This document shows, one piece after another, positions 3,062 to 29,115 of a DNA stretch of 64,000 nt. This DNA comes from a virus, in IMG/VR virus record IMGVR_UViG_3300020160_001176, positions 1 to 64,000 of that record, one strand, 5' to 3'. The notes under the pieces were generated by a model that had not been told where the DNA came from, did not search any database, and worked only from the letters and a program-made list of their open reading frames with translations. The translations under genes and the position numbers were made by a program. How positions within the stretch are numbered: the first letter of the stretch is position 1; each line of letters opens with the position of its first letter.

Positions 3062-3964
3062 ATGGAACACAGGCTTTTAACAAAAGACGTAATACTTTTC
3101 AAAAATGTATTAAAGGATCCAGTAGCGACACAAGATTTTGTTATTCGCTCTAAGACAAATAACGATCAGTGGTTTGGGCAATGGCAAGACTGGAGACCAT
3201 GGGGTCAATACTCCAAGGCATATCCATGGACTGATCCTTCCTATGAAGTTTGTAGAAATGAAGGCGGAGTATATTTAAGAGAGTTCCTAGATATATTTTG
3301 GGATGCAATAAAAATATACAAAGAAAATTACCTTAATCAAGACTACTTTGATCTAATTGGGGAGAGCTCAGATATTCCAACATCTATGGAGGAAGCAAGA
3401 TCTAATCCAAATTATTGTACAGCAGATGTTGTGATACTTGAATCAGAAAACACTGACAAAAAACTTAAGCTTTCAATGGAGTATCATCAGGATAGAAGAC
3501 CTTGGTTTGGCGGGACTCCACATATTTTTAATTTCAATATCTATACTAATGATGACTATCAAGGTGGAGAGATTGTTTTAATCGATACAGAAAGTGGCGA
3601 AGAGTCTACATATATAGATGCTGACGGAAATGAGCAGAAGTGCCTTATGATAGATCCTCCTATTACGTATAAGATGGAAGCAGGAGATGGCCTATTGTTT
3701 AGAACAGATCTATACCATGCAGTAATGCCAGTAGTTGGAAACAAATTCTATGTTCGTCAATTCCTCACAGCCATGTTTAAAGAGGATTTTATTAATATAA
3801 AAAATTCTATGTCAGAAGAAGATTTTGAAGTATTGCTTAAGCAAAAAGAAAAAGAGTCTTTTGATAAATTTATATGGCAGTGCAGAGTATTTAATTCAAA
3901 AGAAGAAATTGGTAATGGCGGAAACCCAAATCAGATAACTTGTGTAATTAAAGCAGTTGACTAG
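3062..3964 (+). CDS. 2OG-Fe(II) oxygenase family protein (300 aa)
   Basis: The predicted catalytic core has H142-Q-D144 (EYHQDRRP), the family signature NDDYQGGEI (residues 163-171), and H219 in LYHAVMP as third iron ligand. At the 2-oxoglutarate site the motif is GNKFYVRQF, with K228 where many relatives have Arg and R232 four residues on. A longer N-terminal region (about 120 residues) distinguishes it from the 205-235-residue members. ATG follows AAGAGGA. It ends just before the leaderless gene at 3985. Substrate unknown. Confidence 0.8.
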   Translation: MEHRLLTKDVILFKNVLKDPVATQDFVIRSKTNNDQWFGQWQDWRPWGQYSKAYPWTDPSYEVCRNEGGVYLREFLDIFWDAIKIYKENYLNQDYFDLIGESSDIPTSMEEARSNPNYCTADVVILESENTDKKLKLSMEYHQDRRPWFGGTPHIFNFNIYTNDDYQGGEIVLIDTESGEESTYIDADGNEQKCLMIDPPITYKMEAGDGLLFRTDLYHAVMPVVGNKFYVRQFLTAMFKEDFINIKNSMSEEDFEVLLKQKEKESFDKFIWQCRVFNSKEEIGNGGNPNQITCVIKAVD

Positions 3965-4473: not shown

Positions 4474-5126
4474 TTATATATATACTCATCAGTATCAGAT
4501 ATAGATCTAATTGCTTCAACTTCTTCAGCGGTCAAAGACTCATATAAAAGTCTAGAGCTATTGTTTACATTGATCTTATGGTTAACTTTACCCTTTTCAA
4601 GGTGACTTGGAACAGGTAGATCCATATCCTGTAATATACTTCGCATTGTGTCATTTGGGTTAGTTGATTCTAATATGAATTTATTGACTCTCTTACTTCG
4701 CCGCACTGCACTATTAATATTAATTTCAGTTGACTGCAATATATCCTTACCATATACATCTGAATGACTAATTAGATATCTAGACATATTGTTAGCATAT
4801 GTATTTACATTCTGCATAAATGCTTCTTTATCTGGAAGATCATTACTATAATATTTTGTTTCTGATTTGTTGGATGATTTAAATTGATCACAATACTTGC
4901 TGACTATTTGTTTTACTGGATCTCTAAATGTTGATGCTACATATGTATCTTTATCTATCTCTGGATGCCACCCCGTAATTAAAGGATTGCTATATTGATC
5001 CCACATATTAAGAAACTCAATGCCATGTTTATTAAACTCATCTTTCAATGGAGAGTACATGTTGCTTAAGAAGTATTTAGATCCTGTTTTAGGTATCTGT
5101 AAATAATAAAAGGACCTGTAAGCCAT
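4449..5126 (-). CDS. Sulfotransferase-like protein (225 aa)
   Basis: Resembles PAPS-dependent sulfotransferases. The N-terminal loop IPKTGSKYF (residues 11-19, K13) matches the 5'-phosphosulfate-binding PKxGxx motif, and TFRDPVKQIVSKY (residues 66-78, R68 and S76) matches the 3'-phosphate-binding region. H54 in TGWHPE is a candidate general base. Length is near that of small members of the family. AGAGGG precedes the ATG. It would move a sulfo group from PAPS to a hydroxyl or amine, perhaps on a glycan; hydroxyls made by the neighbouring oxygenases are possible acceptors, which is inference. Confidence 0.7.
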   Translation of the reverse strand: MAYRSFYYLQIPKTGSKYFLSNMYSPLKDEFNKHGIEFLNMWDQYSNPLITGWHPEIDKDTYVASTFRDPVKQIVSKYCDQFKSSNKSETKYYSNDLPDKEAFMQNVNTYANNMSRYLISHSDVYGKDILQSTEININSAVRRSKRVNKFILESTNPNDTMRSILQDMDLPVPSHLEKGKVNHKINVNNSSRLLYESLTAEEVEAIRSISDTDEYIYNYAKGLDS

Positions 5127-5192
5127 TCTAAGACCCTCTTTTATTGATTTGCATACTTTGGGATAGACCAGATGTTGTAAAATTGCTATATG

Positions 5193-5209
5193 GCCCTTTG
5201 AGGGCTTTT
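5193..5209 (+). terminator. Possible plus-strand terminator
   Basis: GCCCT-TTG-AGGGC followed by TTTT, in the 144-nt gap 5127-5270 between two minus-strand genes. It would stop plus-strand transcripts reading through from the 1543-4473 genes. The gap also has three CGCAC units (5237-5258) just after the stop of the upstream minus-strand gene. Confidence 0.4.
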
Positions 5210-5270
5210 AATAACATTTGAAAATGTCTTCTACCGCCGCACTTTTCGCACTTTCGCACTATATGCTCAA

Positions 5271-6095
5271 TTACTTCTTATATTTAAGTTTATTTACTTC
5301 TTTATGAGTGTTGTCGCAATAAGGAAAGTCGGCAGAGTCCCCGCATACACATTTCTTTTTGCAGAAAGTTGTTTCAGGATAAACAGTGTTGTTCCAGTTT
5401 ATGATTTCTTTTGGATCTGTCATGAATGGATGTTTGGCTGGATCAAATAGCTCGTATGTTCCTGGAGCATGTTCTTTTTCCATGCAGAAGTTAGAATATG
5501 CAAATCTTATACCACTTGTTATTTTTCTTACTCCATGTTCCCAAGGATGAGTTGCTCCATGAATTGCTACATCTCCAGGTCTTACATCTACCTGCAAGCA
5601 ATCATCAGGATCTCCAGGTCTATCTTTAATTCTTCCATCTGCTTCAATATTTGGATAAAAGATTTCTCCGCCTTCGTAGTCTCCCATATAGGCAACCACT
5701 CCATGGCTTAATCTGCAGCAAGTTGACCATCTGTCTAGCTGAGTTAGGTCATGTTCCATATTCATGCCTGGACTATCAGCATGCACAAACATTCCTTCAT
5801 CGCCAGGGCGCATGACATTTACAAATAGCTGTGGATGAATGTAGTGTTCTGGATAAAGCATCATTGAAAGTCTATCCCATATTGGTTTTAGCTCAGGCAT
5901 TGATGGACCAGTCTTGTCCTTGTACCAGTCTATATATTGATCTCTGAATACAAACGCATCTTTTGAATCTTTGTAAGCAGCCTCATGCTCTCTCATTAAA
6001 CGCATGATATTTTCATTTTCTTCTGGGGTTATGAAGCCTCTGTAAATCCAGACCTGCTCTGCAACTTGTTCTACCTTTGGATTGTCTGTAAACAT
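5271..6095 (-). CDS. 2OG-Fe(II) oxygenase fused to a CDGSH-type iron-sulfur motif (274 aa)
   Basis: The N-terminal 200 residues are a 2OG dioxygenase core: iron ligands H105-A-D107 (FVHADSPG) and H187 (WEHGVRK), signature MGDYEGGEIFYPN, and R197 for 2-oxoglutarate. The C-terminus (about 245-265) reads C249-V-C251-GDS-ADF-P258-Y-C260-D261-NT-H264, matching CxC-x2-[ST]-x3-P-x-C-D-x-[ST]-H of CDGSH proteins, which bind a labile [2Fe-2S] cluster through three Cys and one His. The combination suggests an electron-delivery or iron-sensing module attached to the oxygenase. The start overlaps the upstream stop by TAATG. The domain fusion is seen; its function is inference. Confidence 0.8.
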   Translation of the reverse strand: MFTDNPKVEQVAEQVWIYRGFITPEENENIMRLMREHEAAYKDSKDAFVFRDQYIDWYKDKTGPSMPELKPIWDRLSMMLYPEHYIHPQLFVNVMRPGDEGMFVHADSPGMNMEHDLTQLDRWSTCCRLSHGVVAYMGDYEGGEIFYPNIEADGRIKDRPGDPDDCLQVDVRPGDVAIHGATHPWEHGVRKITSGIRFAYSNFCMEKEHAPGTYELFDPAKHPFMTDPKEIINWNNTVYPETTFCKKKCVCGDSADFPYCDNTHKEVNKLKYKK

Positions 6096-6253
6096 TACTT
6101 TTTACCAACTATTCTTTTTAATTTAGAAAATATTTTTGAGAAAAATAATTCAATCTTTCTTTCTGACATGAACTCTTTAGATTCCCCGTGAGTATAGAAT
6201 CTACTCTGATACCTAGGATTCTTAGATGCTTGTGAAAAATGATCCCTTGCCAT
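6095..6253 (-). CDS. 52-residue basic small protein
   Basis: This ATG frame lies between an extended -10 promoter and the oxygenase-CDGSH gene, whose ATG overlaps its stop (TAATG). The product (MARDHFSQASKNPRYQ...) is rich in Lys and Arg and ends in an amphipathic helix at about residues 31-52 (FFSKIFSKLKRIVGKK), so it may bind membranes or nucleic acid. It probably shares a transcript with the downstream oxygenase and sulfotransferase. No family recognised. Confidence 0.55.
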   Translation of the reverse strand: MARDHFSQASKNPRYQSRFYTHGESKEFMSERKIELFFSKIFSKLKRIVGKK

Positions 6254-6262
6254 ATTAATATT

Positions 6263-6271
6263 ATTATACCA
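6263..6271 (-). promoter_or_regulatory. Extended -10 promoter on the minus strand
   Basis: On the minus strand TGG-TATAAT ends 9 nt before the ATG at 6253, leaving a leader of only a few nucleotides. It lies just after the intrinsic terminator of the upstream minus-strand operon, so it starts a separate unit (52-residue gene, oxygenase-CDGSH, sulfotransferase). Confidence 0.55.
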
Positions 6272-6281
6272 CCAGACACGT

Positions 6282-6316
6282 AAAAACCCCCTATGGAGGC
6301 GGATCCAAAAGGGGGC
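6282..6316 (-). terminator. Intrinsic terminator of the endolysin operon
   Basis: On the minus strand CCCCCT and AGGGGG form a stem around an inner TGGA/TCCA pair, followed by TTTTT. It ends the minus-strand transcript that includes the endolysin and the small genes down to 6377. Confidence 0.75.
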
Positions 6317-6376
6317 TTTACCATTGGGAGACGAGTCTCAACCAACACTTTATTATAAGTTAATAAAGATTCAATG

Positions 6377-6565
6377 TCAAGGAATAATTACGCCTTTTTC
6401 AACAAGTGTGTCATACATGTTGTTCATCTGCCATTGCAAAAATGGCTGGTTCTTAATAATCTGCTGTTCAACATCTGCAATATCTGCACCGCTGGACACA
6501 CCAGCAAATCTTGTATCGTTATTTAATTTTTCAAGCATTAAAAGTACTACTTTTTCTTTTTCCAT
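6377..6565 (-). CDS. 62-residue hypothetical protein
   Basis: GAGGAAG precedes the ATG, which starts 1 nt after the upstream stop. The product (MEKEKVVLLMLEKLNND...) looks mostly helical, with hydrophobic positions at regular spacing. It and the preceding 70-residue protein have similar size and composition (NxMYDTL here, HRIYDLL there), so they may interact. No known family. The gene is the last before the terminator at 6282-6316. Confidence 0.55.
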   Translation of the reverse strand: MEKEKVVLLMLEKLNNDTRFAGVSSGADIADVEQQIIKNQPFLQWQMNNMYDTLVEKGVIIP

Positions 6566-6566
6566 T

Positions 6567-6779
6567 TTATTCTTCCTCGTTTGGTCTAAATGATGGGGCT
6601 GGTCCTAGTAGATAGCCCTTATTATGATATTCTACCATTTTTTGCGTGTCTTCTCCACCAACAATTTTATTGGACATCAGAGTTAGCAAATCGTATATCC
6701 TATGTAACATTATATAATTTACCATAGGAAGGTTATCCTCTAAATCAGAGGTATTTATTTCATTCAGGTCTTCCTGCAT
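6567..6779 (-). CDS. 70-residue hypothetical protein
   Basis: Helical N-terminal half with LPMVNYIMLHRIYDLLTLM (residues 17-35) and a Pro/Glu-rich end. The start overlaps the 3' end of the 36-residue gene by 20 nt; GAGAGG lies about 12 nt upstream. The pattern is similar to small phage proteins that form helical hairpins. Function unknown. Confidence 0.55.
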   Translation of the reverse strand: MQEDLNEINTSDLEDNLPMVNYIMLHRIYDLLTLMSNKIVGGEDTQKMVEYHNKGYLLGPAPSFRPNEEE

Positions 6780-6870
6780 CTAACCAAAAAGCCTCTCTAC
6801 CCATTGCATCGGTTACCCGCATTGGGGCCGATTCGTTTTCTAAATTACAAATACAATTTTCTTTACACAT
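6760..6870 (-). CDS. 36-residue Cys-containing small protein
   Basis: This short ATG frame overlaps the upstream gene by 8 nt and the downstream gene by 20 nt. The N-terminus MCKENCICNLE has three cysteines in eight residues, a possible metal-binding patch. Without it the operon would have a gap of about 80 nt. No ideal ribosome-binding site is seen (GAGG lies 15 nt upstream), so translation may be coupled. Moderately likely to be real. Confidence 0.4.
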   Translation of the reverse strand: MCKENCICNLENESAPMRVTDAMGREAFWLDAGRPE

Positions 6871-7078
6871 TTTTATGTTTATTTACCTCATCAACTATCT
6901 TCTGATAGCTTGCTGCTCCTAGAGACTTTTTATAATCGCACTCTAAGCAATATAAGTATACCTCATCTAAAAGGTTTTGGTTAGAAAAAAGAAGGGATTG
7001 GTCTACTGGGCATAAAAGCTTTTCAACCAATCCTTCTTCTGACATGGAGATGTAGGCTGATACATATTGTACCCTCAT
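6863..7078 (-). CDS. 71-residue probable zinc-ribbon protein
   Basis: AAAGGAG lies 5-6 nt from the ATG. One half-site is LLCPVD (C23) and the other YCLECDYK (C44, C47), so three Cys plus an Asp or other residue could bind zinc as in a degenerate zinc ribbon. The rest is helical. It follows the endolysin with a 10-nt gap and is probably in the same operon. Role unknown. Confidence 0.55.
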   Translation of the reverse strand: MRVQYVSAYISMSEEGLVEKLLCPVDQSLLFSNQNLLDEVYLYCLECDYKKSLGAASYQKIVDEVNKHKNV

Positions 7079-11912: not shown

Positions 11913-12371
11913 ATGTCAAGACAGATGAAGGTTGCCCTTAATCTTCTTACCTCTATGGAGAACCCAGATGTAGCCACAGTCGGAGACATTTATTTCAATA
12001 TAGTAACTAAAAACTTAAGAATATACAACGGATTAGTTTGGGTTGAATTAACCCCACCAAGCACTGACCCAACTCCATTCTATATGCACACACACACGTT
12101 TGATGGAGATGTACATACAATTGATGTACAAAACAAGATTACATTTAAAGAAACAAACGTTCAAGACACACCAGGAGTTACTCTGCCTATCATAGTTGGC
12201 TATGATGGTCAAAATGCTTCATCTCTAAATGATGGCGGATCTATAACAGACCAAACATTACTTGATGGCGGAAACGTTGAAGGACAAATACAGCAAGCAG
12301 AAGATCAAATTCTAGAGGGAGGTAACTCTGCAGACATCGATGGTATAATTGTTGATGCAGGGGGTTCATAA
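11913..12371 (+). CDS. Short fibre-associated protein (152 aa)
   Basis: The N-terminal MSRQMKVALNLLTSMENPDVATVGDIYFNIVTKNLRIYNG parallels that of the preceding fibre, so the two share an attachment domain. The His/Asp-rich middle (MHTHTFDGDVHTID) could bind metal, as in some fibre needles. The end is Gly/Asp-rich. The next gene starts 2 nt after its stop. Probably a small fibre or connector. Confidence 0.5.
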   Translation: MSRQMKVALNLLTSMENPDVATVGDIYFNIVTKNLRIYNGLVWVELTPPSTDPTPFYMHTHTFDGDVHTIDVQNKITFKETNVQDTPGVTLPIIVGYDGQNASSLNDGGSITDQTLLDGGNVEGQIQQAEDQILEGGNSADIDGIIVDAGGS

Positions 12372-12372
12372 A

Positions 12373-14586
12373 ATGGCATTAAGAATACAATTAAGAAGAG
12401 ACACAGCAGCAAATTGGGTAGCAAATAATCCAATATTGCTTTCTGGTGAACTAGGCTTTGAAACAGACACATTAAAGTTTAAAGTTGGTAACGGCTCTAG
12501 ATGGAATTCCACAACCTCATATGCATTAAAATTAGGCGAAGCAAATGGAGTAGCTACACTTAACTCTATTGGTAAAATTCCAACATCACAGCTTCCAGAC
12601 TCTATTTCTGCTTCAGTTGATTTAAATGGAGCTATTGCTGCATTGACAACAAATTCAATTGCAGAGGGATCAACCAATAAATATTTTACAAATCAAAGAG
12701 CAATCGACGCTGCCGCTCTCGCAATATCCTCAGCTATTGCAACAGAAATAATAAATAGAAACAATGCAATTGCAACGCAGGCAACAGCTACGACAGCAGC
12801 GATTGCAACTGCAAAGACCCAAGCAATCGCAGCAGCAGCAGACGATGCTTCTGCAAAAGTTATCGCAGCCAAAGCAGAACTTAATACATCTATACAGTCA
12901 AATACAGTATCTGTAAATTCATATACTGATGCAAAAATTGCCACAGAGGTCACAAATAGAAATAATGCAATTTCTACAGCAGTGTCAGGTCTATCTTCAG
13001 GTGGAGGATCTTCAACAATAACATTGGGATCTGTTTTAACTGGAGATGCAGACTCTTCTGCTTCAATTGTAAATTCTGGAACCACGACAGCAGCAGTATT
13101 TAACTTTACTATTCCTCGTGGCGCAACTGGCGCATCTGGTGCAACTGGACCACAGGGATTAAAAGGCGACACAGGAGACACTGGACCACAGGGCCTAACT
13201 GGATTAACAGGAGCAAATGGAGCAACTGGAGCCGCTGGCTCCGCAGCCACAGTAGCTATTGGAACAGTTACAACTGGAGCCGCTGGCTCCTCAGCAGTAG
13301 TTACAAATGCTGGCACAACTTCAGCAGCTGTTTTAAACTTTACTATTCCTCGTGGAGCAGATGGCTCAGGTGGAGGTTCAACTTTTTCTGGAAACACAGA
13401 CGCAGTAACAGAAGGCACAACAAATCTTTACTTTACAGATGCACGAGCACTAGCGGCAACAAACCAAAGATTCACAGATGTTTATGTTAATTTAAATCAA
13501 GCAACAGACGACCTGTTGACATATGCAAATTCTACTTATTTAACATCATCTAGTCTCGGAAATACATTAGATGGATATGTAATGGAAGCAGACGCAGATT
13601 TGGCAGGAGGATATGCAAGACTTGGAGCGTCAAGCGGAAAAATTCTAGACTCAGTTATACCTTCTACAATTGCAAGAACATCAGATATAACAACAGCTAT
13701 AGCAAATGTTGTAAATGCAGCACCAGCCTCATTTGATACACTTAAAGAAATTTCAGACTATATTGCCTCAGATCAAACAGCAGGAACAGCATTAACAACA
13801 TTAGTAGGAACTAAGCTTTCTTCAACAGATGCAGCATCTACATATGCTCCAATTGCTTCCCCTACATTTACTGGTACAGTGGGTGGCATTACAAAGACAA
13901 TGGTTGGCTTAGGAAATGTTGATAATACAACAGATCTACTAAAGCCTATATCTACTGCAACTCAAACAGCACTAGATTCCAAATTATCCACATCAGTTGC
14001 AGCATCAACCTATGCAACTAAAGCCTCACCAGTATTTACTGGAACAGTAGATTTTTCTGGTGCAACAGTAACTGGGATAACAGCACTTCCAGCACAATTA
14101 GATAATGCTGGCAAATATTTAAGAACAAATGGCACAGTGGCCTCATGGGCAGATCTTTCTGGAACAGTGCTTGAAGGCAGTTTTAGTGCAAATTCTTTAT
14201 ACAATGTTGGAAACAAATTCCACTTAGGGTCTGGCACAAGCGGATATGCAGAAATATCAGTTAACCCAACAAGCGGAAAACTGTATCATAAAAAAGTAAT
14301 TGGCGGAACAGAGCTAGAAATTATTAATGAGTCCTGGGAACAAACATTAACCAATAAGACAATATCTGGATTAAATAATACAATAACAAACCTTCAGGCA
14401 TCATCTTTTGCAGACTCTTCTATAACTAACGCTAAACTTGCTAATTCAAGCATAACAATTAATGGCACACCAGTTTCACTTGGTGGAACTGCAACAATTT
14501 CTGGTGGTGCAAAAACATTCTATAATAATACTGGCACACTACCTACCACTGGTATGGTTGCTGGAGATATTTATATACAATACTAG
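12373..14586 (+). CDS. Large tail fibre with Mtd-like N-terminus and collagen-like runs (737 aa)
   Basis: The start at 12373 (MALRIQLRRDTAANW) is chosen because GGGGG lies upstream and the earlier in-frame ATG at 12349 overlaps the previous gene. Residues 1-50 match the N-terminal domain of major tropism determinant/fibre proteins (RIQLRRD...GELGFETDT...VGNG). An Ala-rich coiled region, two IPRG modules, a collagen-like Gly-X-Y run of about 15 triplets, and beta-repeats follow. Probably a long trimeric side or tip fibre. Confidence 0.7.
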   Translation: MALRIQLRRDTAANWVANNPILLSGELGFETDTLKFKVGNGSRWNSTTSYALKLGEANGVATLNSIGKIPTSQLPDSISASVDLNGAIAALTTNSIAEGSTNKYFTNQRAIDAAALAISSAIATEIINRNNAIATQATATTAAIATAKTQAIAAAADDASAKVIAAKAELNTSIQSNTVSVNSYTDAKIATEVTNRNNAISTAVSGLSSGGGSSTITLGSVLTGDADSSASIVNSGTTTAAVFNFTIPRGATGASGATGPQGLKGDTGDTGPQGLTGLTGANGATGAAGSAATVAIGTVTTGAAGSSAVVTNAGTTSAAVLNFTIPRGADGSGGGSTFSGNTDAVTEGTTNLYFTDARALAATNQRFTDVYVNLNQATDDLLTYANSTYLTSSSLGNTLDGYVMEADADLAGGYARLGASSGKILDSVIPSTIARTSDITTAIANVVNAAPASFDTLKEISDYIASDQTAGTALTTLVGTKLSSTDAASTYAPIASPTFTGTVGGITKTMVGLGNVDNTTDLLKPISTATQTALDSKLSTSVAASTYATKASPVFTGTVDFSGATVTGITALPAQLDNAGKYLRTNGTVASWADLSGTVLEGSFSANSLYNVGNKFHLGSGTSGYAEISVNPTSGKLYHKKVIGGTELEIINESWEQTLTNKTISGLNNTITNLQASSFADSSITNAKLANSSITINGTPVSLGGTATISGGAKTFYNNTGTLPTTGMVAGDIYIQY

Positions 14587-21026: not shown

Positions 21027-22352
21027 ATGGCAAATAAGAAAATCGGTATTAAGTCTTCAGCTCAGGATAACTTCCTAGAGCCAAAGGCAGTCACTGGATT
21101 TACTGCCACTGGTGTTAATGGAGGGGCGTTCAATAACGGTTCAGCGAACCTAGCTTGGACGCTTCCATCCGATTCACCAGCAGCAACACTATATACAATA
21201 GTGTCAAATCCAGCAACAACAACACAAACAACAGCTTCTACCTCAATGTCCTTTACTGGTCTTGCAGGTGGAACATCATATACATTTACAATAACTCCAT
21301 CTAATGCAGTTGGCAATGGTCTTACTACTACTTCAGGTGCTACAACACCTACTACTGTTCCAGCTCAAGTAACAGGAGTTTCGGCTTCATCATCTTCAGC
21401 AGGAACGGACGTAGTTTCATGGTCTACTCCAGCAAACGGAGGATCAGCACTAGGTGCTTATTACTGGGCATCATCTGATGGAAAGACTGGTAATACAACC
21501 TCTACATCAGTTTCAGTATCACAAGAGCAAGGAACTGCTCAGACCTACACAGTATATGCAACAAATGCAATTGGTTCAGGACAGACTTCAGGTGCATCTA
21601 ATAGCATAACTACATTCTTCTCACCACCAAGCTTCTTCTCCCCACCAGGGTTCTTTTCCCCACCAGGGTTCTTTGCACCTCCAGGGTTCTTTTCCCCACC
21701 AGGGTTCTTTTCCCCACCAGGGTTCTTTGCACCTCCAGGGTTCTTTTCCCCACCAGGGTTCTTCGGTCCTCCAGGATTCTTTGCACCACCAGGGTTCTTC
21801 GGTCCTCCAGGATTCTTTGCACCACCAGGGTTCTTCTCTCCTCCAGGTTTTGGCGGATGCATAGAAGAAAACACACTTATTAAAACAACAACAGGAATGA
21901 AATCTATTAAAGATCTAGCAGTTGGAGACACAATTGTCTCAGTAGATTTGGCTGGAATCCCACTAGTTGGCTCACAAGAAGAGTCAGAGTTTGATCTAGC
22001 ACTATGGAATTCAGACAGCCTAGTTTCTTCAGGAAATGTTGAAGCAACAGTAACTTCAAAAATTGGTAAAATTGTACCGCAGGTAATGTATTTCAATGGC
22101 AACGAGTCAAAGAAAGTATCTCTAGTACAGCATGTATTCATTAAAAGAGAAGGCATGTACCAGGTTCAAGTTTCAGCAGATATCGTTGAAGGAGACTACC
22201 TTGTTCATGTAAATGAAGACGGATCTCTTACAGACGAGCTAATCGAATCAATCACAATGGTTGATGGAGTAGCAACAGTATATAGATTAAATACAGAACC
22301 ACAAGACTGGTTCGTTGCAGATGGAATTCTGCTACACAATTTAAAGATCTAA
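21027..22352 (+). CDS. Fn3 protein with FFxPPG repeats and a C-terminal Hint domain (441 aa)
   Basis: Two Fn3-like domains (about 20-110 and 112-195) are followed by 13 repeats of F-F-[SAG]-P-P-[GS] (197-274) and a Hint domain (278-438). The Hint domain starts at C278 after GFGG (CIEENTLIKTTTG...LAVGD), has H369 (LVQHVF) as its block-B His, and ends in WFVADGILLHN (H437, N438) with only LKI after it. The Cys and the final His-Asn allow thioester formation at G277-C278 and Asn cyclisation. The TxxH Thr is Leu here, so efficiency is unknown. Aromatic/Pro-Gly repeats may form a flexible adhesive stalk. It lies directly upstream of the oxygenase operon. Confidence 0.85.
   Translation: MANKKIGIKSSAQDNFLEPKAVTGFTATGVNGGAFNNGSANLAWTLPSDSPAATLYTIVSNPATTTQTTASTSMSFTGLAGGTSYTFTITPSNAVGNGLTTTSGATTPTTVPAQVTGVSASSSSAGTDVVSWSTPANGGSALGAYYWASSDGKTGNTTSTSVSVSQEQGTAQTYTVYATNAIGSGQTSGASNSITTFFSPPSFFSPPGFFSPPGFFAPPGFFSPPGFFSPPGFFAPPGFFSPPGFFGPPGFFAPPGFFGPPGFFAPPGFFSPPGFGGCIEENTLIKTTTGMKSIKDLAVGDTIVSVDLAGIPLVGSQEESEFDLALWNSDSLVSSGNVEATVTSKIGKIVPQVMYFNGNESKKVSLVQHVFIKREGMYQVQVSADIVEGDYLVHVNEDGSLTDELIESITMVDGVATVYRLNTEPQDWFVADGILLHNLKI
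21615..21848. repeat. Thirteen tandem 18-bp repeats encoding FFxPPG
   Basis: Each 18-nt unit encodes Phe-Phe-(Ser/Ala/Gly)-Pro-Pro-Gly (the first unit ends in Ser). Units differ mostly at the third codon, and silent sites are similar (TTCTTT/TCCCCACCAGGG), so the array has probably grown by unequal recombination. It is coding, in frame, and not a CRISPR array. Confidence 0.9.
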
Positions 22353-22413: not shown

Positions 22414-23121
22414 ATGATAGGCTTAATGGCAGAAATGCAAAATGATTTATCGGAGACATGGTCTTCAAAAGAACAGCTTTTCCCTGGACTTTGGGTTTAC
22501 AGAGATGTAATTAAAAAAGATTTAAATCTTTCCCAAAGACTAGAGGAAGAGCTTTCTTTGTCTAGCGGATACAGATGGCAACGAGCAACTGTTGGCGGGA
22601 GTAAGAAATCTATAGACTATAGGGACTGTTTTGATTTTAAAATTGAAAAGACAAGTTTTCCAGAAAAAGATAAGCATCAGATTGTATTTGAAAAGATATG
22701 GCAAGACTCATATGACGCACAAAATCCAGCCCTTCAAGACTATTGCAATATGTATAGCATACAAATGAATTTCTGGGAAAAAATGAACTTTATTAAGTAT
22801 GGCCCAGGCAATTATTTCAAAGAGCATGCGGACCATGGGTTTTCTTACGTATCAACAGTTTCATTAGTTGGCTATATAAACGATAACTATGTTGGTGGAG
22901 AGATTGTTTTCCCAAAACTTGGTTTACAAATTAAACCTAAAGCTGGAGACCTTTATATATTTCCTTCAACATATTTATTTTCACACGCAGCCATGCCAGT
23001 TTCTGATGGCATAAAATACTCTGTAGTAACAATGACAGATTATAATGATAATTCTCACGGAGATGAGTTTGACAGCTTTGTTAGACTAAAAAACAAAAGT
23101 AAATTGAATATGGGAGGGTAG
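22414..23121 (+). CDS. 2OG-Fe(II) oxygenase family protein (235 aa, cluster gene 1)
   Basis: Iron ligands H138-A-D140 (FKEHADHG) and H191 (LFSHAAMP); signature YINDNYVGGEIVFP; 2-oxoglutarate site GIKYSVV with K201 in place of Arg. The next gene is a close paralogue with the same layout, including the NFxKYGPG block before the ligands. The first ATG is used because it lies 6 nt after the -10 box with no ribosome-binding site. First gene of the operon after the PPG/Hint protein, hence a candidate modifier of that protein. Confidence 0.85.
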   Translation: MIGLMAEMQNDLSETWSSKEQLFPGLWVYRDVIKKDLNLSQRLEEELSLSSGYRWQRATVGGSKKSIDYRDCFDFKIEKTSFPEKDKHQIVFEKIWQDSYDAQNPALQDYCNMYSIQMNFWEKMNFIKYGPGNYFKEHADHGFSYVSTVSLVGYINDNYVGGEIVFPKLGLQIKPKAGDLYIFPSTYLFSHAAMPVSDGIKYSVVTMTDYNDNSHGDEFDSFVRLKNKSKLNMGG

Positions 23122-23122
23122 T

Positions 23123-23821
23123 ATGAATCAGCCAGAAATGTTAGCGCCAGGAGTTCTTGTATATAGAAATGTATTTCCAAAAGAAATGGATTTGATTAAT
23201 AGGCTTGAAGAATGTTTATCCAGAGACCCAGATGCCGAAGGTGTTGGATACTCAGACTCACCACATGCAACTTATAAATGGAAGCAGGCCACAACTGGTT
23301 ATGCTTTGAGTGATTTAAAGTATAGAGACGCATTTGATTTTAAAATTAAGAAAAACAAGCAGGACGATGATGGCAAAAGCGCAGATCAAATTAAGCTAGA
23401 ATCAATATGGGAAAATGCTAAAGATGCACAGCTAGGCCCAGTAGAAGACTATAGACAAAAATTTAACCTTGCACCACTAAATTACTGGGAGTCTTTTAAC
23501 TTTGTTAAATACGGACCAGGGCAGCATTTTCAAGTACACTCTGACCACGGATACTCCTATATCTGTGTTCTATCTTCAGTCGGGTATATTAACGACGATT
23601 ACGAAGGCGGGGAGTTGTTTTTTGATAAGTTTAATTTAAAAATAAAGCCACAGGCAGGAGACCTTTATCTATTCCCTTCTTCATACTTATTCTCTCACGC
23701 CTCACTTCCAGTAACAAGCGGAACAAAGTATTCTATAGTAACAATGCTTGATTACCTAGAAGCACCACACACACCAGCATATCGAGAGATAGAGAAAAAG
23801 TATACAGATGGATATGCGTAA
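23123..23821 (+). CDS. 2OG-Fe(II) oxygenase family protein (232 aa, cluster gene 2)
   Basis: Close paralogue of the preceding gene: H139-S-D141 (FQVHSDHG), H192 (LFSHASLP), signature YINDDYEGGELFF and GTKYSIV with K202. Ribosome-binding site GGGAGG, start 1 nt after the previous stop. An insertion at residues 36-50 (AEGVGYSDSPHATY) is the main difference. The pair probably arose by tandem duplication. Substrate unknown. Confidence 0.85.
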   Translation: MNQPEMLAPGVLVYRNVFPKEMDLINRLEECLSRDPDAEGVGYSDSPHATYKWKQATTGYALSDLKYRDAFDFKIKKNKQDDDGKSADQIKLESIWENAKDAQLGPVEDYRQKFNLAPLNYWESFNFVKYGPGQHFQVHSDHGYSYICVLSSVGYINDDYEGGELFFDKFNLKIKPQAGDLYLFPSSYLFSHASLPVTSGTKYSIVTMLDYLEAPHTPAYREIEKKYTDGYA

Positions 23822-24512
23822 AATAAATGTTTTTAAGACTGGCGACAATCCAGCAAAAATAGAACAAATAAAAGTAAATAGAGAATGGATGGATGAGACT
23901 GCAGACAGACATGCATATAACTGTTTCCCAGTCAGTCTATCTAATACTTTAGGATGGGGAATATCCTTCCCAGAAGACATTTCTTTTATTTGGGACGGAA
24001 TATCAGACAGCCAGCCCATACACATTAAAGTACTTTCTGGAGAAAAATATGTTCATACAAATAGGTCTAATGCAACAATAAGCTTTATAACTGGACTTAC
24101 ATTTAAGACTGATAAGAACACAACAATTCTAACAATGCCAGCCCCCAACTTTTTTATAGATGGAGCACAAGCATTTACAACTTTATTAACAACATCATTT
24201 TTTTCTGGAGAAGTTCCAGTTGTATGGAGAGTCACCTCACCAGGAAAAGTTATAACCGTAAAAGCTGGCACACCAGTTGCCGTAATACTTCCAATATCAC
24301 TAAAAGAAATTAATGGATATGAGGTAGATCTTTATGATGGCAAGGGCTATGTCGGATCGGCCTACGATGGAAGAGAATACGGAATGACAGTAGATAAGAT
24401 TAATCAGTCTGGCAAGTGGGCGGGTTTCTATAGGAACGCAACTGATCATAAGGGAAAAGTTGTCGGTGAACACGAGACCAAGACTTTGAGGCTACGGGTA
24501 AATGACAAATAA
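23808..24512 (+). CDS. Unknown protein, cluster gene 3 (DUF6065-like, 234 aa)
   Basis: Start overlaps the previous gene by 14 nt. The core block CFPVSLSNTLGW...FPEDISF (residues 39-60) aligns with CPGLLDIFISGY...TPCNITF in the next gene, and both have AGTPxxxxxP near the C-terminus, so they are distant paralogues. The pattern is like the DUF6065 family; from memory only. The fold looks all-beta (cupin-like), but no metal motif is seen. Its place amid oxygenases suggests a partner or substrate-recognition role, which is inference. Confidence 0.55.
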   Translation: MDMRKINVFKTGDNPAKIEQIKVNREWMDETADRHAYNCFPVSLSNTLGWGISFPEDISFIWDGISDSQPIHIKVLSGEKYVHTNRSNATISFITGLTFKTDKNTTILTMPAPNFFIDGAQAFTTLLTTSFFSGEVPVVWRVTSPGKVITVKAGTPVAVILPISLKEINGYEVDLYDGKGYVGSAYDGREYGMTVDKINQSGKWAGFYRNATDHKGKVVGEHETKTLRLRVNDK

Positions 24513-25230
24513 AATAACATTTCATTCTAATAGACTATACAACATTATTTCTGATTCGTATGCCCCGCAAACTACAAAATCTTTAATGCCAGAATGGTTT
24601 AAGGATGCTCCAAAATTTGAAATTGACCCAAATACCCAGGAGCCATATTTAAATACAGAGGGCGGTCCAGTAAGAACATTTAGATCATGCCCAGGACTAC
24701 TTGATATATTTATAAGCGGATATGTTTACGTAACACCATGTAATATAACTTTTAAAAAGAATACAGATGGAACTACTTTTGTAAAAACGGAAGCTGGCTA
24801 TGAGGATTTTATAGGAGTGAGACAGCCAATGAAAAGTTTCCCAACACCAATTGGATGCGATGACTATCATTTTCATTGGTACCCAAACTGGGCACCATCC
24901 GTGCCAGATGGATATAGCGTAATGTACATTCATCCAATAAATAGATTTGATTTACCATTTATTACCACTTCTGCTATAATAGATAATGATAAGATGGATA
25001 CTCCTGGCCTAATGCCATTTTTTCTTAAAAAAGATTTTGAAGGCACTATTCCAGCAGGAACACCTTACATGCAATTAATACCATACAAAAGAGAAGACTG
25101 GAAGATGGAAAAGAAATTCTATTCTAAAGATGAAATAGAAAAAAGGCACAACCAGCAGGCAAAAAAGTTTAGAACAAAAGATGGTGGAGCGTATAAGCTC
25201 AACGTCAGGTCTTTAAAGAAATATGAATAG
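24502..25230 (+). CDS. Unknown protein, cluster gene 4 (242 aa)
   Basis: N-terminal LMPEWFKDAPKF, then TFRSCPGLLDIFISGYVYVTPC, both conserved-looking blocks; IPAGTPYMQLIPYKREDW is shared in pattern with the preceding gene. The C-terminal 40 residues are Lys-rich and helical. Related genes are known as hypothetical proteins in marine phages. Overlaps the upstream gene by 11 nt. No catalytic motif; may be a structural or scaffold partner of the oxygenases. Confidence 0.55.
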   Translation: MTNKITFHSNRLYNIISDSYAPQTTKSLMPEWFKDAPKFEIDPNTQEPYLNTEGGPVRTFRSCPGLLDIFISGYVYVTPCNITFKKNTDGTTFVKTEAGYEDFIGVRQPMKSFPTPIGCDDYHFHWYPNWAPSVPDGYSVMYIHPINRFDLPFITTSAIIDNDKMDTPGLMPFFLKKDFEGTIPAGTPYMQLIPYKREDWKMEKKFYSKDEIEKRHNQQAKKFRTKDGGAYKLNVRSLKKYE

Positions 25231-25237
25231 GTGAAAA

Positions 25238-25912
25238 ATGGAATATACAAAAAGAGCTAGGTTTGCAAGAATGTCAATTACCCCATCTGGTCATTTCGGT
25301 AACTCCCCAGATAATGTAGTAGAGCTAGAAGACATGGTTACGCTAGAAGAACAAGAATATCTTTTAAATTTTGCAAGAAACAATAAAATTTGGGATGTTA
25401 CAGAATCACAGTGGAATGAAAACGGAAATATTATTTATGACCACCGAGTATGGGAAGATAGAGTTGCAACCAAAGACTCTTTGATGAAAGCTGACCCAGA
25501 AGTTGTTAGAATATTAAACCTTGTTATAAAAAGAATGACTCCGCATATTAGAGAAAAGTTTGATGTTGAAGTTTCACCAACTGACGCAGCCATAGTAAGA
25601 TGGCCAGTAGGAGCAATGCAATTCCCACATGCAGATAAAGAGCTACACGAAGGCCCAGATGCGGGAACAGAGAATGAGTTTCCTTGGTATGACATAGGAA
25701 CCGTATTCTATCTGAACGATGATTACGAAGGCGGAGAGCTATTCTTTCCATTGCAAAATATAAAATTTAAGCCAAAGCCAAGGGCTGCATATTTTTTCCC
25801 AGGAGATAAGAACTATATTCATGGGGTAACAAAAGTAACAAGCGGAACAAGATATACCGCACCATTCTTTTGGACAATAACTAGATTAGGTAGAGTAGAC
25901 AATGACAAATAA
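25238..25912 (+). CDS. 2OG-Fe(II) oxygenase family protein (224 aa, cluster gene 5)
   Basis: Iron ligands H131-A-D133 (FPHADKEL) and H195 (YIHGVTKV); signature YLNDDYEGGELFFP; R205 in SGTRYTAPF at the 2-oxoglutarate site, as in prolyl hydroxylases. The Arg distinguishes it from the Lys-type members at 22414 and 23123. AGGTGA precedes the ATG. Its last codons overlap the next start by 11 nt. Substrate unknown. Confidence 0.85.
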   Translation: MEYTKRARFARMSITPSGHFGNSPDNVVELEDMVTLEEQEYLLNFARNNKIWDVTESQWNENGNIIYDHRVWEDRVATKDSLMKADPEVVRILNLVIKRMTPHIREKFDVEVSPTDAAIVRWPVGAMQFPHADKELHEGPDAGTENEFPWYDIGTVFYLNDDYEGGELFFPLQNIKFKPKPRAAYFFPGDKNYIHGVTKVTSGTRYTAPFFWTITRLGRVDNDK

Positions 25913-26684
25913 CTACGAGTATACATCTTTTGAGCTTTTGCCAAATGTAAGAATATACCAAGGGCTTCTCCCAGATGCTGACGAGCTTTATAGAATCATG
26001 AAAGAGTCAGATCACGATGCAGAAGGCAGATACTATTTAAGAAATTGGGACGAATGGTCAATATTTGGAACGTACTCTCAGCAAAAACATAATGAGGATG
26101 AGCCTAGAGAATTTGGCCCAAGATATGATGAAGAGAAGATGCTTTCAGATAGAGTCTATGAGGCTTATAATACTGCCATCGAGGATTATAAAAAGACATA
26201 CGGGATTGTGTTGCCAGAATCAGCTAAACTGATGACATCATCTTTTTCAAAATATGATGCAAATGTTGATACAATGGGCAATGAAATGTCAATGCAGTAC
26301 CACACAGACTTTATTATTTCAGAAAGAGATATGCCTGGTCCAAAGTTTTTGCTTACATGTACAACATACATCAATGATGATTATGAGGGTGGAGATATTG
26401 AGTTTTATGTAGGAGAAGAATACTTCCCTCATAAGCCAAAAGCTGGAGACATCCTTGTATTCCCTTCACAAGATCCTTATTTCCATGGAGTAAGAACAAT
26501 TAGAAATGGCAACAAGTTCTTTATAAGAAACTTTATCCAATACTATTATGATGGTCACCCACAATGGATTGCAAATCAAAAGCACTATGGAGCTTATACA
26601 TGGGCCAAGATGGAGCAAAAAAGAATTGAAAGAGAAAACCCAGCAAACATGAGATATTCTGAAAGAAAGAATTTAGGATACTGA
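25902..26684 (+). CDS. 2OG-Fe(II) oxygenase family protein (260 aa, cluster gene 6)
   Basis: Iron ligands H134-T-D136 (QYHTDFII) and H195 (YFHGVRTI); signature YINDDYEGGDIEF; GNKFFIRNF with K205 and R209, resembling the pattern of the 300-residue oxygenase at 3062, so these two may be a subfamily. The N-terminal 120 residues are helical. Substrate unknown. Translationally coupled to its neighbours. Confidence 0.85.
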   Translation: MTNNYEYTSFELLPNVRIYQGLLPDADELYRIMKESDHDAEGRYYLRNWDEWSIFGTYSQQKHNEDEPREFGPRYDEEKMLSDRVYEAYNTAIEDYKKTYGIVLPESAKLMTSSFSKYDANVDTMGNEMSMQYHTDFIISERDMPGPKFLLTCTTYINDDYEGGDIEFYVGEEYFPHKPKAGDILVFPSQDPYFHGVRTIRNGNKFFIRNFIQYYYDGHPQWIANQKHYGAYTWAKMEQKRIERENPANMRYSERKNLGY

Positions 26685-26685
26685 C

Positions 26686-27384
26686 ATGCCAATTCCAAAA
26701 ATAAGAGATGAATTCTTTATAGTAGAAAATTTTGTAGATCAAAAAACCTGCTCTGCTATTATAAATTATTTTGATTTTTTGGTTGAAAACAAGATATTAA
26801 AGTGGAATGAGATATCATTTTACGGATCAGAAGCTATGGGATACTGGCCTTCAGACCCTAATTTAAAACTTTTTGGTTTGCCAGAAGATTTCTTTAATCA
26901 GCTCAAAGAAAAAATAAAAGCAAAGACTGAAGAGCTTTTAGGGTTTGAAGTTTCTGAAGTTAGCTACCATGCACAGAGATGGGTTGAGGGCGCTTTTGCA
27001 GACTATCATTCCGACAACTCAGATGAACTTGGGAACCCCACAGCATTTGAAAGAAGTAAGTATGCGGTATTTATTTATTTAAATGATGATTTTGAAGGTG
27101 GTCACCTAAAGTTTAAAGATAGCGATATCGACATAAAGCCAAAGGTTGGTCTAACTGCAATATTTGCTGGTGGACATACACGAGAGCATATGGTTACTAC
27201 AGTAAAGGGTGGCATAAGATATACAATCGGTTCATTTTGGGATGATGCTAGCATAGAATATACTGAAGAGCAGAGAGAAGCTTGGGCAACAGAATTAAAG
27301 GCAGTAAGAGCAGAACAAGAAAAGATTTATAAAAAGTGGGCAACACCAGAAGGCAAACCAGTAATGCCAGAAGGTAGAGAATGA
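26686..27384 (+). CDS. 2OG-Fe(II) oxygenase family protein (232 aa, cluster gene 7)
   Basis: Iron ligands H108-S-D110 (DYHSDNSD) and H168 (REHMVTTV); signature YLNDDFEGGHLKF; R178 in GGIRYTIGSFW. This layout is closest to canonical prolyl-4-hydroxylases of the phages considered here. The C-terminus carries a Glu/Lys-rich helix (about 190-220). Starts 1 nt after the previous stop; next gene overlaps by ATGA. Substrate unknown. Confidence 0.85.
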   Translation: MPIPKIRDEFFIVENFVDQKTCSAIINYFDFLVENKILKWNEISFYGSEAMGYWPSDPNLKLFGLPEDFFNQLKEKIKAKTEELLGFEVSEVSYHAQRWVEGAFADYHSDNSDELGNPTAFERSKYAVFIYLNDDFEGGHLKFKDSDIDIKPKVGLTAIFAGGHTREHMVTTVKGGIRYTIGSFWDDASIEYTEEQREAWATELKAVRAEQEKIYKKWATPEGKPVMPEGRE

Positions 27385-27998
27385 TAAAAGAGCTTCTTGA
27401 TAACAACATTTATTATTATAAAAATGTTATTGCCAACCCAAACGAGTTTGTAAAAGAGATCGAAAGGCTAGACAGTCTATCTCAAGAAAATGCTCATTTA
27501 ACAAAATGGATGAGATGGACATCAAGCAATGACCCAGATGACATTTTTGGAGAATATAAGTCTGGTGCGTTCACTGCCCCACAGCCCAACAACGATGTAG
27601 ATAAAAGATATGCTTTGATTGTATCTACAATACTTAATGCAATTAATTTGTGCGTAGCAGACTATTCCGAATCCTTAAATAAAGACTTAGGGTTTTTACC
27701 AAACGAAGTTTCAATAAGAAAGTATTTCCCACCAGCCCAAATGGGGCCCCACATAGATTGTGAAGAAGATGACGATGAGGCAAGACTAACTGCCTCAATT
27801 GTTCTTTATTTAAACGATGACTATGTTGGAGGCGACTTGGCATTCCCAGAACAAAACATAAAGATTAAGCCAGAGGCTGGCAGTCTTGTCATATTCCCTT
27901 CAGTAAAACCATATTTTCATGCCTCAACTCCACTTGTTTCTGGCAATAAGTATATGTGCCCAGCATTCATGTTTAAAAGAAGTAAGATAATTTCATAG
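27381..27998 (+). CDS. 2OG-Fe(II) oxygenase family protein (205 aa, cluster gene 8)
   Basis: The smallest member: iron ligands H124-I-D126 (GPHIDCEED) and H180 (YFHASTPL); signature YLNDDYVGGDLAFP; K190 in SGNKYMCPAF. An acidic run (CEEDDDEA) follows the ligands and could bind a basic substrate. Last gene of the operon, with the promoter of the next fibre gene directly after its stop. Substrate unknown. Confidence 0.85.
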   Translation: MIKELLDNNIYYYKNVIANPNEFVKEIERLDSLSQENAHLTKWMRWTSSNDPDDIFGEYKSGAFTAPQPNNDVDKRYALIVSTILNAINLCVADYSESLNKDLGFLPNEVSIRKYFPPAQMGPHIDCEEDDDEARLTASIVLYLNDDYVGGDLAFPEQNIKIKPEAGSLVIFPSVKPYFHASTPLVSGNKYMCPAFMFKRSKIIS

Positions 27999-28014: not shown

Positions 28015-29115
28015 ATGGCAACAGTAGGCGTTAATGGATGGCACTTCCCAAGTTACTCGGATTCACCCGATGTACCTAGGGATCTTGGTATTTTAGGCGA
28101 AGATATTGCAACATACATAGCAGCACATCCTGGTCCGCAAGGATTAACTGGCCCATCAAATGTTTTAACTGTATCTGAAACAAATACACTCAGTGCTGGC
28201 CAAAATGCATCTGTAACGATTACTGGAACATCCCCATCACAATCTTTAATTTTTAACATTCCAAGAGGACAAGATGGAATTTTAGGAGGCCCTGGACCGT
28301 CTAATGTTTTATCTATTGGAACAGTCACACCAGGAGTAACAGCATCTGCAACTATAACTGGTACATCTCCGTCTCAAGTTTTAAATTTAGTTTTGCCAAA
28401 AGGTGACACAGGAACAACTGGAACAACTGGAGCGCCTGGACCAAAAGGAGACGCAGCGGCAACGATAACAGTAAACTCAACAACAACTTCAGCAGCAGGA
28501 ACTAGTGCCACAGTTACAAATACTGGAACTTCAAGTGATGTCCTATTAAACTTTACTATTCCTCGTGGAGCAGATGGCGCACAAGGCATACAGGGCCCAG
28601 CAGGCCCAGCAGGATCAAATGCAGTTATAGATCCGATTGCAACAAGAATTGCTTTGCAAACAACAGCAACTTCATCAACTGGAGTAAACTCATCGTGGTA
28701 TCCATTCGTAACAAATTCATTTTCTTTAGGCCTACTAGGACCTATTAACTCTGGCCCAGATAACGTTACAAGAGCTTGGAAAAATATATATTTAAATACA
28801 GCAGCAACAGTAATTTCTGACGAAAGAACAAAAGAGAATGTAGCGGCATCAGATTTAGGATTAAGTTTCATCAATAATCTTAGCCCAGTTAAGTATAATA
28901 AAATTGACGGGGACAGAACACATTACGGATTAATTGCACAACAGGTTAAGTCTGTATTAGATGAAGCTAACATTGCAGACTTTGGCGGTTGGGTAATTTC
29001 TGATGTGAATGACCCAGAAGGACAGCAAGCATTAAGATACGAAGAATTTATTTCTCCACTAATTAAAGCAGTCCAAGAACTTACAGCAAGAGTAAAATTA
29101 CTAGAAGAAAAGTAG
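28015..29115 (+). CDS. Collagen-like tail fibre with S74 auto-chaperone (366 aa)
   Basis: Leaderless start. Three IPRG/LPKG modules with Gly-X-Y runs (GPQGLTGPSN, KGDTGTTGTTGAPGPKG, GIQGPAGPAG) are followed by a C-terminal intramolecular chaperone of the peptidase S74 family: S268-D-E-R-T-K273 is the Ser-Lys dyad, and the tail LIAQQVKSVLDE and EELTARVKLLEEK-type helices fit. The chaperone should trimerise and then be released by cleavage before S268. A 33-bp segment is identical to one in the fibre gene at 12373. Confidence 0.8.
   Translation: MATVGVNGWHFPSYSDSPDVPRDLGILGEDIATYIAAHPGPQGLTGPSNVLTVSETNTLSAGQNASVTITGTSPSQSLIFNIPRGQDGILGGPGPSNVLSIGTVTPGVTASATITGTSPSQVLNLVLPKGDTGTTGTTGAPGPKGDAAATITVNSTTTSAAGTSATVTNTGTSSDVLLNFTIPRGADGAQGIQGPAGPAGSNAVIDPIATRIALQTTATSSTGVNSSWYPFVTNSFSLGLLGPINSGPDNVTRAWKNIYLNTAATVISDERTKENVAASDLGLSFINNLSPVKYNKIDGDRTHYGLIAQQVKSVLDEANIADFGGWVISDVNDPEGQQALRYEEFISPLIKAVQELTARVKLLEEK

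Follow-up and report, generated by a model that had tools for sequence, protein, structure and literature searches.

An FFxPPG-stalk fibre gene with a predicted Hint tip lies beside a cassette of prolyl-hydroxylase-like genes in a freshwater phage

Organization of the stalk-Hint locus

The window analyzed here is a 64,000-nucleotide stretch (positions 1 to 64,000) of the 82-kb IMG/VR virus record IMGVR_UViG_3300020160_001176. It contains a gene encoding a 441-residue protein with a proline-rich repeat stalk and a C-terminal Hint domain, followed directly downstream by six PF13640 oxygenase genes within 5.7 kb. The features of this region are the following.

21,027–22,352, plus strand: gene for the stalk-Hint fibre protein, 441 residues (open reading frame and translation)
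21,132–21,326, plus strand: fn3 domain, residues 36–100 (Pfam PF00041, E = 5e-7)
21,615–21,848, plus strand: stalk of 13 FF[SAG]PP[GS] units, residues 197–274
21,858–22,349, plus strand: Hint domain, residues 278–441 (AlphaFold pLDDT 92; Foldseek matches in the PDB and among viral proteins)
21,858–21,860, plus strand: C278, candidate position-1 nucleophile; the 25 representatives have either Cys or Ser here
22,128–22,130, plus strand: Q368, block-B catalytic position (placed by alignment with phage NCTB and the TxxHP relatives)
22,335–22,340, plus strand: terminal pair H437-N438, invariant in the HN class; LKI and the stop codon come next
22,414–23,121, plus strand: 2OG-Fe(II) oxygenase 1, prolyl 4-hydroxylase (P4H)-like (PF13640, E = 3e-11; P4H matches in the PDB; AlphaFold fold matches P4H)
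23,123–23,821, plus strand: 2OG-Fe(II) oxygenase 2 (PF13640, E = 1e-12; reciprocal linkage to the stalk)
23,808–24,512, plus strand: DUF6065 gene inside the cassette, also in the syntenic cassette of related locus L025
24,502–25,230, plus strand: cassette gene of unknown function, also in the L025 cassette
25,238–25,912, plus strand: 2OG-Fe(II) oxygenase 3 (PF13640, E = 4e-7; nearest PDB relative P4H, E = 6e-4)
25,902–26,684, plus strand: 2OG-Fe(II) oxygenase 4 (PF13640, E = 5e-9)
26,686–27,384, plus strand: 2OG-Fe(II) oxygenase 5 (PF13640, E = 5e-10; nearest PDB relative prolyl 3-hydroxylase 1, a weak match at E = 0.002)
27,381–27,998, plus strand: 2OG-Fe(II) oxygenase 6 (PF13640, E = 7e-11; nearest PDB relatives a PKHD-type hydroxylase and P4H)

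Translation of the open reading frame confirms the architecture described in an earlier note on this DNA, in which thirteen FFxPPG units lead into a C-terminal domain. The array consists of one FFSPPS unit and twelve FF[SAG]PPG units and is joined by a GFGG link to C278; this cysteine, the terminal H437-N438 pair and the three trailing residues (LKI) are all as claimed. A second fn3-like stretch is discernible by eye at approximately residues 113–196, and a weak NCBIfam match spans residues 26–197. The gene adjoins an Mtd_N tail-fibre gene and lies upstream of the portal gene, a setting that supports the proposed assignment to the tail or its fibres.

Two collagen-like Gly-x-y fibre proteins are also encoded in the window, at 12,349–14,586 and 28,015–29,115 (both plus strand). 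The latter ends in a Peptidase_S74 chaperone domain; the stalk-Hint protein itself has no match to this intramolecular chaperone. A minus-strand gene at 5,271–6,095 has a weak C-terminal match to the CDGSH iron-sulphur zinc finger, below the cut-off.

Structural prediction of the C-terminal domain

The assignment of the C-terminal domain to the Hint superfamily is weak by sequence and firm by predicted fold. In the sequence libraries, the Pfam Intein_splicing family (PF14890) matched at E = 8e-4, below its cut-off, and a search of PDB sequences with the domain alone returned chance-level matches only. An AlphaFold (AF2) model built with 39 relatives has a mean pLDDT of 92.1 and a pTM of 0.87, and Foldseek comparison of this model with the PDB produced 53 matches at E ≤ 1e-3, the best 50 of which are all inteins, intein-like domains or hedgehog Hint domains. 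The fold search thus settled the identity of the domain and bore out the Hint fold proposed in the earlier note, which had named a structural prediction lacking that fold as grounds for refutation. The protein is the sole Hint match within the 82-kb record, and a scan of genome contigs with its Hint domain recovered no relative.

Fifteen close relatives of the protein are present in IMG/VR, and INPHARED holds no close named relative of the whole 441-residue sequence. Among named phages, the nearest example is NCTB, with tail proteins that end in Hint domains. The closest viral fold matches are predicted proteins of uncultured phages labelled 'Fibronectin type III' or 'Hint domain containing', indicating that members of the family have already been deposited in predicted-structure databases; our literature search found no paper that describes these fn3/Hint proteins.

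The FFxPPG stalk family

The stalk units of the gene differ in their synonymous codons, and F-F-[A/S/G]-P-P-x is kept across the 94 arrays (1114 units) of related viruses, a count in which the search pattern itself demanded the two prolines. These two observations indicate that the repeat is maintained at the protein level and is not merely the product of recent copying. Gly follows Pro-Pro in only about 61% of the units in related arrays, a figure biased upward because the loci were picked by PPG and one that counts against the reading proposed below. A collagen-like stalk was ruled out by the repeat spacing, in which Gly recurs at most every sixth residue and not every third.

The stalk family comprises at least 119 stretches matching FFxPPGFFxPPGFF in IMG/VR. 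The C-terminal ends carried on this scaffold vary and include several Hint types, a short Cys-rich tail (e.g. CPYGTYCDNGKCIG) or a few residues only, and many stalk proteins of related phages terminate right after the stalk, without a Hint domain. The Hint domain is therefore optional, and a cleaved stalk would look like the natural short forms. An unusually long member, the 673-residue stalk-Hint protein at 5,014–7,038 of locus L046, has FFxPP units from approximately residue 33, recurring to residue 504.

Linkage between stalk and oxygenase genes

The strongest feature of the locus, which the earlier note does not mention, is its linked prolyl-hydroxylase-like cassette. Six of the eight PF13640 matches in the 82-kb record fall within the cassette; two further oxygenases lie away from the stalk, at 1,543–2,241 and 3,062–3,964 (both plus strand), the second below the Pfam cut-off. 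The HxD..H..K/R signature is kept in all six cassette enzymes. Among PDB sequences, a profile of oxygenases 1 and 2 matched P4Hs of B. anthracis (E = 8e-9) and a chlorella virus (E = 2e-5), and the first ten PDB structures matched by the AF2 model of oxygenase 1 (pLDDT 86.7) are all prolyl hydroxylases. Thus, of the features expected of a P4H (a double-stranded beta-helix fold with HxD..H and Lys/Arg for 2-oxoglutarate), the signature is found in six of six enzymes and the fold in the model of oxygenase 1. Oxygenase 4 has no clear PDB relative by sequence.

The linkage was assessed on 40 stalk loci that remained after de-duplication at 80% and are flanked on either side by 1.5 kb or more. In 34 of them (25 of 27 with a Hint domain and 9 of 13 without), a same-strand oxygenase gene follows within 1.5 kb downstream; upstream, none has one (0/40). 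Collagen-like phage genes, used as controls, have an oxygenase neighbour in 4 of 48 cases (Fisher 7e-14), although the p-values overstate independence because related phages were counted separately. The association also holds in the opposite direction: among 72 IMG/VR loci that were recovered with oxygenase 2 and do not break off at the match, an FFxPP stalk lies upstream in 66, and the remaining six have just 0.7–3.5 kb of upstream sequence and belong to a subfamily with the stalk 3.0–3.5 kb away. The arrangement varies between loci, the two genes being directly adjacent, spaced by other genes or, in some cases, accompanied by a convergent oxygenase.

Among the spaced arrangements, locus L061 (1,021–2,290) has a sulfotransferase (PF03567) and an Asp/Asn beta-hydroxylase (PF05118) between the stalk-Hint gene and the oxygenases, and L069 (2,565–3,870) has a sulfotransferase (PF03567) in the same place, which suggests a broader fibre-modification cassette. 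The cassette gene at 24,502–25,230 (plus strand) has relatives with 24–32% identity in tailed viruses of haloarchaea, HRTV-7 among them; the neighbourhoods of cassette-gene relatives in halovirus HRTV-7 and cyanophage ACG-2014f contain no annotated stalk.

Active-site residues of the Hint domain

The earlier note had assigned the block-B histidine to H369. This assignment was mistaken: Q368 aligns with the catalytic His of the T-x-x-H-P relatives L095 (TAEHP), L129 (TKEHP) and L078 (TKDHP) and with that of the phage NCTB block B (TEQHP), placing H369 at the Pro position, where it ranks 150th of 164 in conservation. The protein thus has S365-x-x-Q368 in place of the block-B T-x-x-H motif.

Residue counts were made on 25 Hint representatives sharing less than 70% identity. 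Position 278 is Cys in 19 and Ser in 6; position 368 is Gln in 11, Glu in 7 and His in 7; and position 438 is Asn in 17, Asp in 6 and Ala in 2. Taking position 278, position 368 and the terminal pair together, the representatives fall into four states: Cys with Gln or His and HN (10/25), Cys with Glu and YN or NN (7/25), Ser with His and FD or YD (6/25), and Cys with Gln and IA (2/25), the last having lost the terminal Asn or Asp. These states are clade-wide and therefore reflect few independent events; on the tree, two changes suffice between HN and non-HN forms, with long branches leaving the deep joins unsure. Across 10 diverged relatives of the HN class (mean identity 35%), 12 columns are invariant, C278, H437 and N438 being three of them; dN/dS between close pairs is 0.02–0.38. 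This conservation, together with the tracking of the terminal pair by position 368, suggests a coupled and mostly retained active site, and the residue pattern fits a working, co-adapted site better than a dead fold. One clade (L125, L065) has Pro at position -1, which should hinder cleavage.

Among class 1 inteins, the constant residues are Cys/Ser1 and a terminal Asn, Gln or Asp, while the block-B and penultimate His are replaceable with compensation; block-B T-x-x-H is usual and not strictly required (PMC7664689). Bacterial intein-like (BIL) domains are defined by a Hint fold, a terminal His-Asn and the lack of a nucleophilic +1 residue (PMC7664689). The domain studied here has the fold and the Cys/Ser at position 1 that characterize the Hint superfamily, as well as the terminal His-Asn and non-nucleophilic +1 residue of BIL domains. 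Since that residue is Leu, and not the Cys, Ser or Thr that opens the C-extein of a splicing intein, and three residues in all follow the domain, splicing is not expected. It resembles the BIL and Hint superfamily structures 6y75 and 2lwy in fold, Cys1, terminal His-Asn and absence of Cys, Ser or Thr at +1, but differs from BIL domains in the replacement of the block-B His by Gln (Glu in another clade) and in its position C-terminal to a fibre stalk, three residues from the end of the protein, where cleavage is as yet a prediction.

The NCTB proteins BN7874_136 and BN7874_132 (LT598654) are likewise fibre-type proteins with a Gly-rich linker, a Cys1 Hint domain, His-Asn and a short tail. They differ in that their N-terminal parts are collagen-like or of another kind, an FFxPPG stalk is missing, the block-B His is canonical and the stretch examined around them has no annotated oxygenase. 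Adjoining a Hint-ending tail protein, NCTB also encodes a stand-alone Hint-like protein (BN7874_135; L256, 9,486–9,947) that keeps the terminal HN and, by eye, has no Cys1 aligned at its start.

Proposed modification and maturation of the stalk

We propose that this tailed freshwater phage would use the protein as a subunit of a fibre or adhesin, in which an N-terminal fn3 region precedes the FFxPPG stalk and the C-terminal tip, here a Hint domain, can be swapped. All or some of the neighbouring 2OG-Fe(II) oxygenases would act as prolyl hydroxylases on the Pro-Pro-x units, stiffening or decorating the stalk, and in most lineages the Hint domain would be an intein-like, non-splicing self-processing domain. 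We give this combined reading an even chance of being correct. Modification of the stalk by the cassette oxygenases, with the substrate inferred from the linkage, is the more probable part; the stalk Pro-Pro pairs are the obvious candidate.

Phages commonly encode 2OG oxygenases. Prolyl-hydroxylase-like folds proved to be widespread among phages in a 2026 survey (PMC12774648), and another survey concluded that viral use of prolyl 4-hydroxylase 'remains cryptic' (PMC9301287). For phage oxygenases, including those of cyanophages, DNA repair or the modulation of 2-oxoglutarate metabolism has been suggested (PMC3037559), consistent with an unlikely alternative, in which the cassette enzymes act on host metabolism, nucleic acids or other fibres and their synteny was inherited with the fibre island. 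The collagen-like proteins at 12,349–14,586 and 28,015–29,115 are alternative hydroxylase substrates close at hand, and the presence of six oxygenases for one stalk suggests that there are other substrates too. Nevertheless, the linkage is reciprocal, directional and found across diverged genes in differing arrangements, collagen-like genes elsewhere rarely have oxygenase neighbours, and the best fold matches are peptidyl-prolyl hydroxylases, all of which argue for the stalk; shared ancestry of one fibre island may account for part of the linkage. Relative to characterized P4Hs (B. anthracis 3itq, PBCV-1 vCPH 5c5t and Chlamydomonas 2jig), the cassette enzymes share the fold and the HxD..H..K/R signature but are only about 15–23% identical, have a candidate substrate only and occur as several paralogues beside one stalk gene.

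For the Hint domain, Cys1 cleavage at G277-C278 by a putative self-processing domain is chemically plausible. An N-to-S acyl shift at this bond, followed by hydrolysis, would set the stalk free with a free C-terminus, like the related proteins that end just past the repeat; the block-B role would be filled by Gln in this Hint domain and by Glu or His in other clades. Self-cleavage of this particular protein is a prediction that we regard as equally likely to hold or fail, and the optional tip, as a putative self-processing module, probably removes itself. A possible but less favoured explanation is that the fold serves only as a structural or receptor-binding tip or trimer cap, keeping its residues without cleavage, a role with which a hydroxylated stalk is compatible. 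In favour of such a tip, relatives exchange their C-terminal modules in the manner of host-recognition tips, most lack the block-B His and IA replaces the terminal pair in two representatives; against a purely structural role, position 278 is always Cys or Ser, partner residues change in step, and C278, H437 and N438 stay invariant in the HN class despite its low mean identity.

Hedgehog Hint domains carry out thioester-based transfer, and the Hint fold and Cys1 of the present domain, both shared with the hedgehog autoprocessing domain (1at0), would allow a thioester at C278 to crosslink the stalk or bind another molecule covalently. We consider this quite improbable: the domain ends in HN-LKI, no sterol- or other adduct-recognition region follows it, no conserved acceptor was identified and the block-B His had been misassigned. 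Hedgehog-like transfer is less apt because the His-Asn end is that of inteins and intein-like domains. Those same features, an intein-type fold and an HN end, might point to a decayed selfish intein, an origin already disfavoured and now hardly credible; it was rejected for want of a C-extein, and +1 is Leu, there is no endonuclease, the domain occupies the same place in dozens of diverged relatives and dN/dS between close relatives is low.

The stalk gene stands beside prolyl-hydroxylase-like genes in nearly every related virus checked, which suggests that these phages modify their own fibres chemically, and tight linkage to a proline-repeat fibre provides a specific, testable substrate for phage 2OG oxygenases. 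More tentatively, the locus may represent a widespread dedicated phage system in which a non-collagen FFxPPG stalk is hydroxylated by several prolyl-hydroxylase paralogues, in some relatives with an Asp/Asn hydroxylase and a sulfotransferase, and matured by a self-excising, noncanonical Gln/Glu-type Hint domain. For probing how far self-processing tolerates change, the Hint family furthermore supplies natural variation at the active site, where block B has Q, E or H in step with the terminal pair.

Identity of the phage

The phage is a freshwater relative of the Stanwilliamsviridae, with a likely actinobacterial freshwater host. By portal protein, its nearest named relatives are Streptomyces phages of that family, BillNye among them, with 56% identity. 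The order RNR, portal, protease and major capsid protein is shared with BillNye, in which about 4 kb separates RNR from portal; in the present phage that interval is about 21 kb long and filled with fibre and oxygenase genes.
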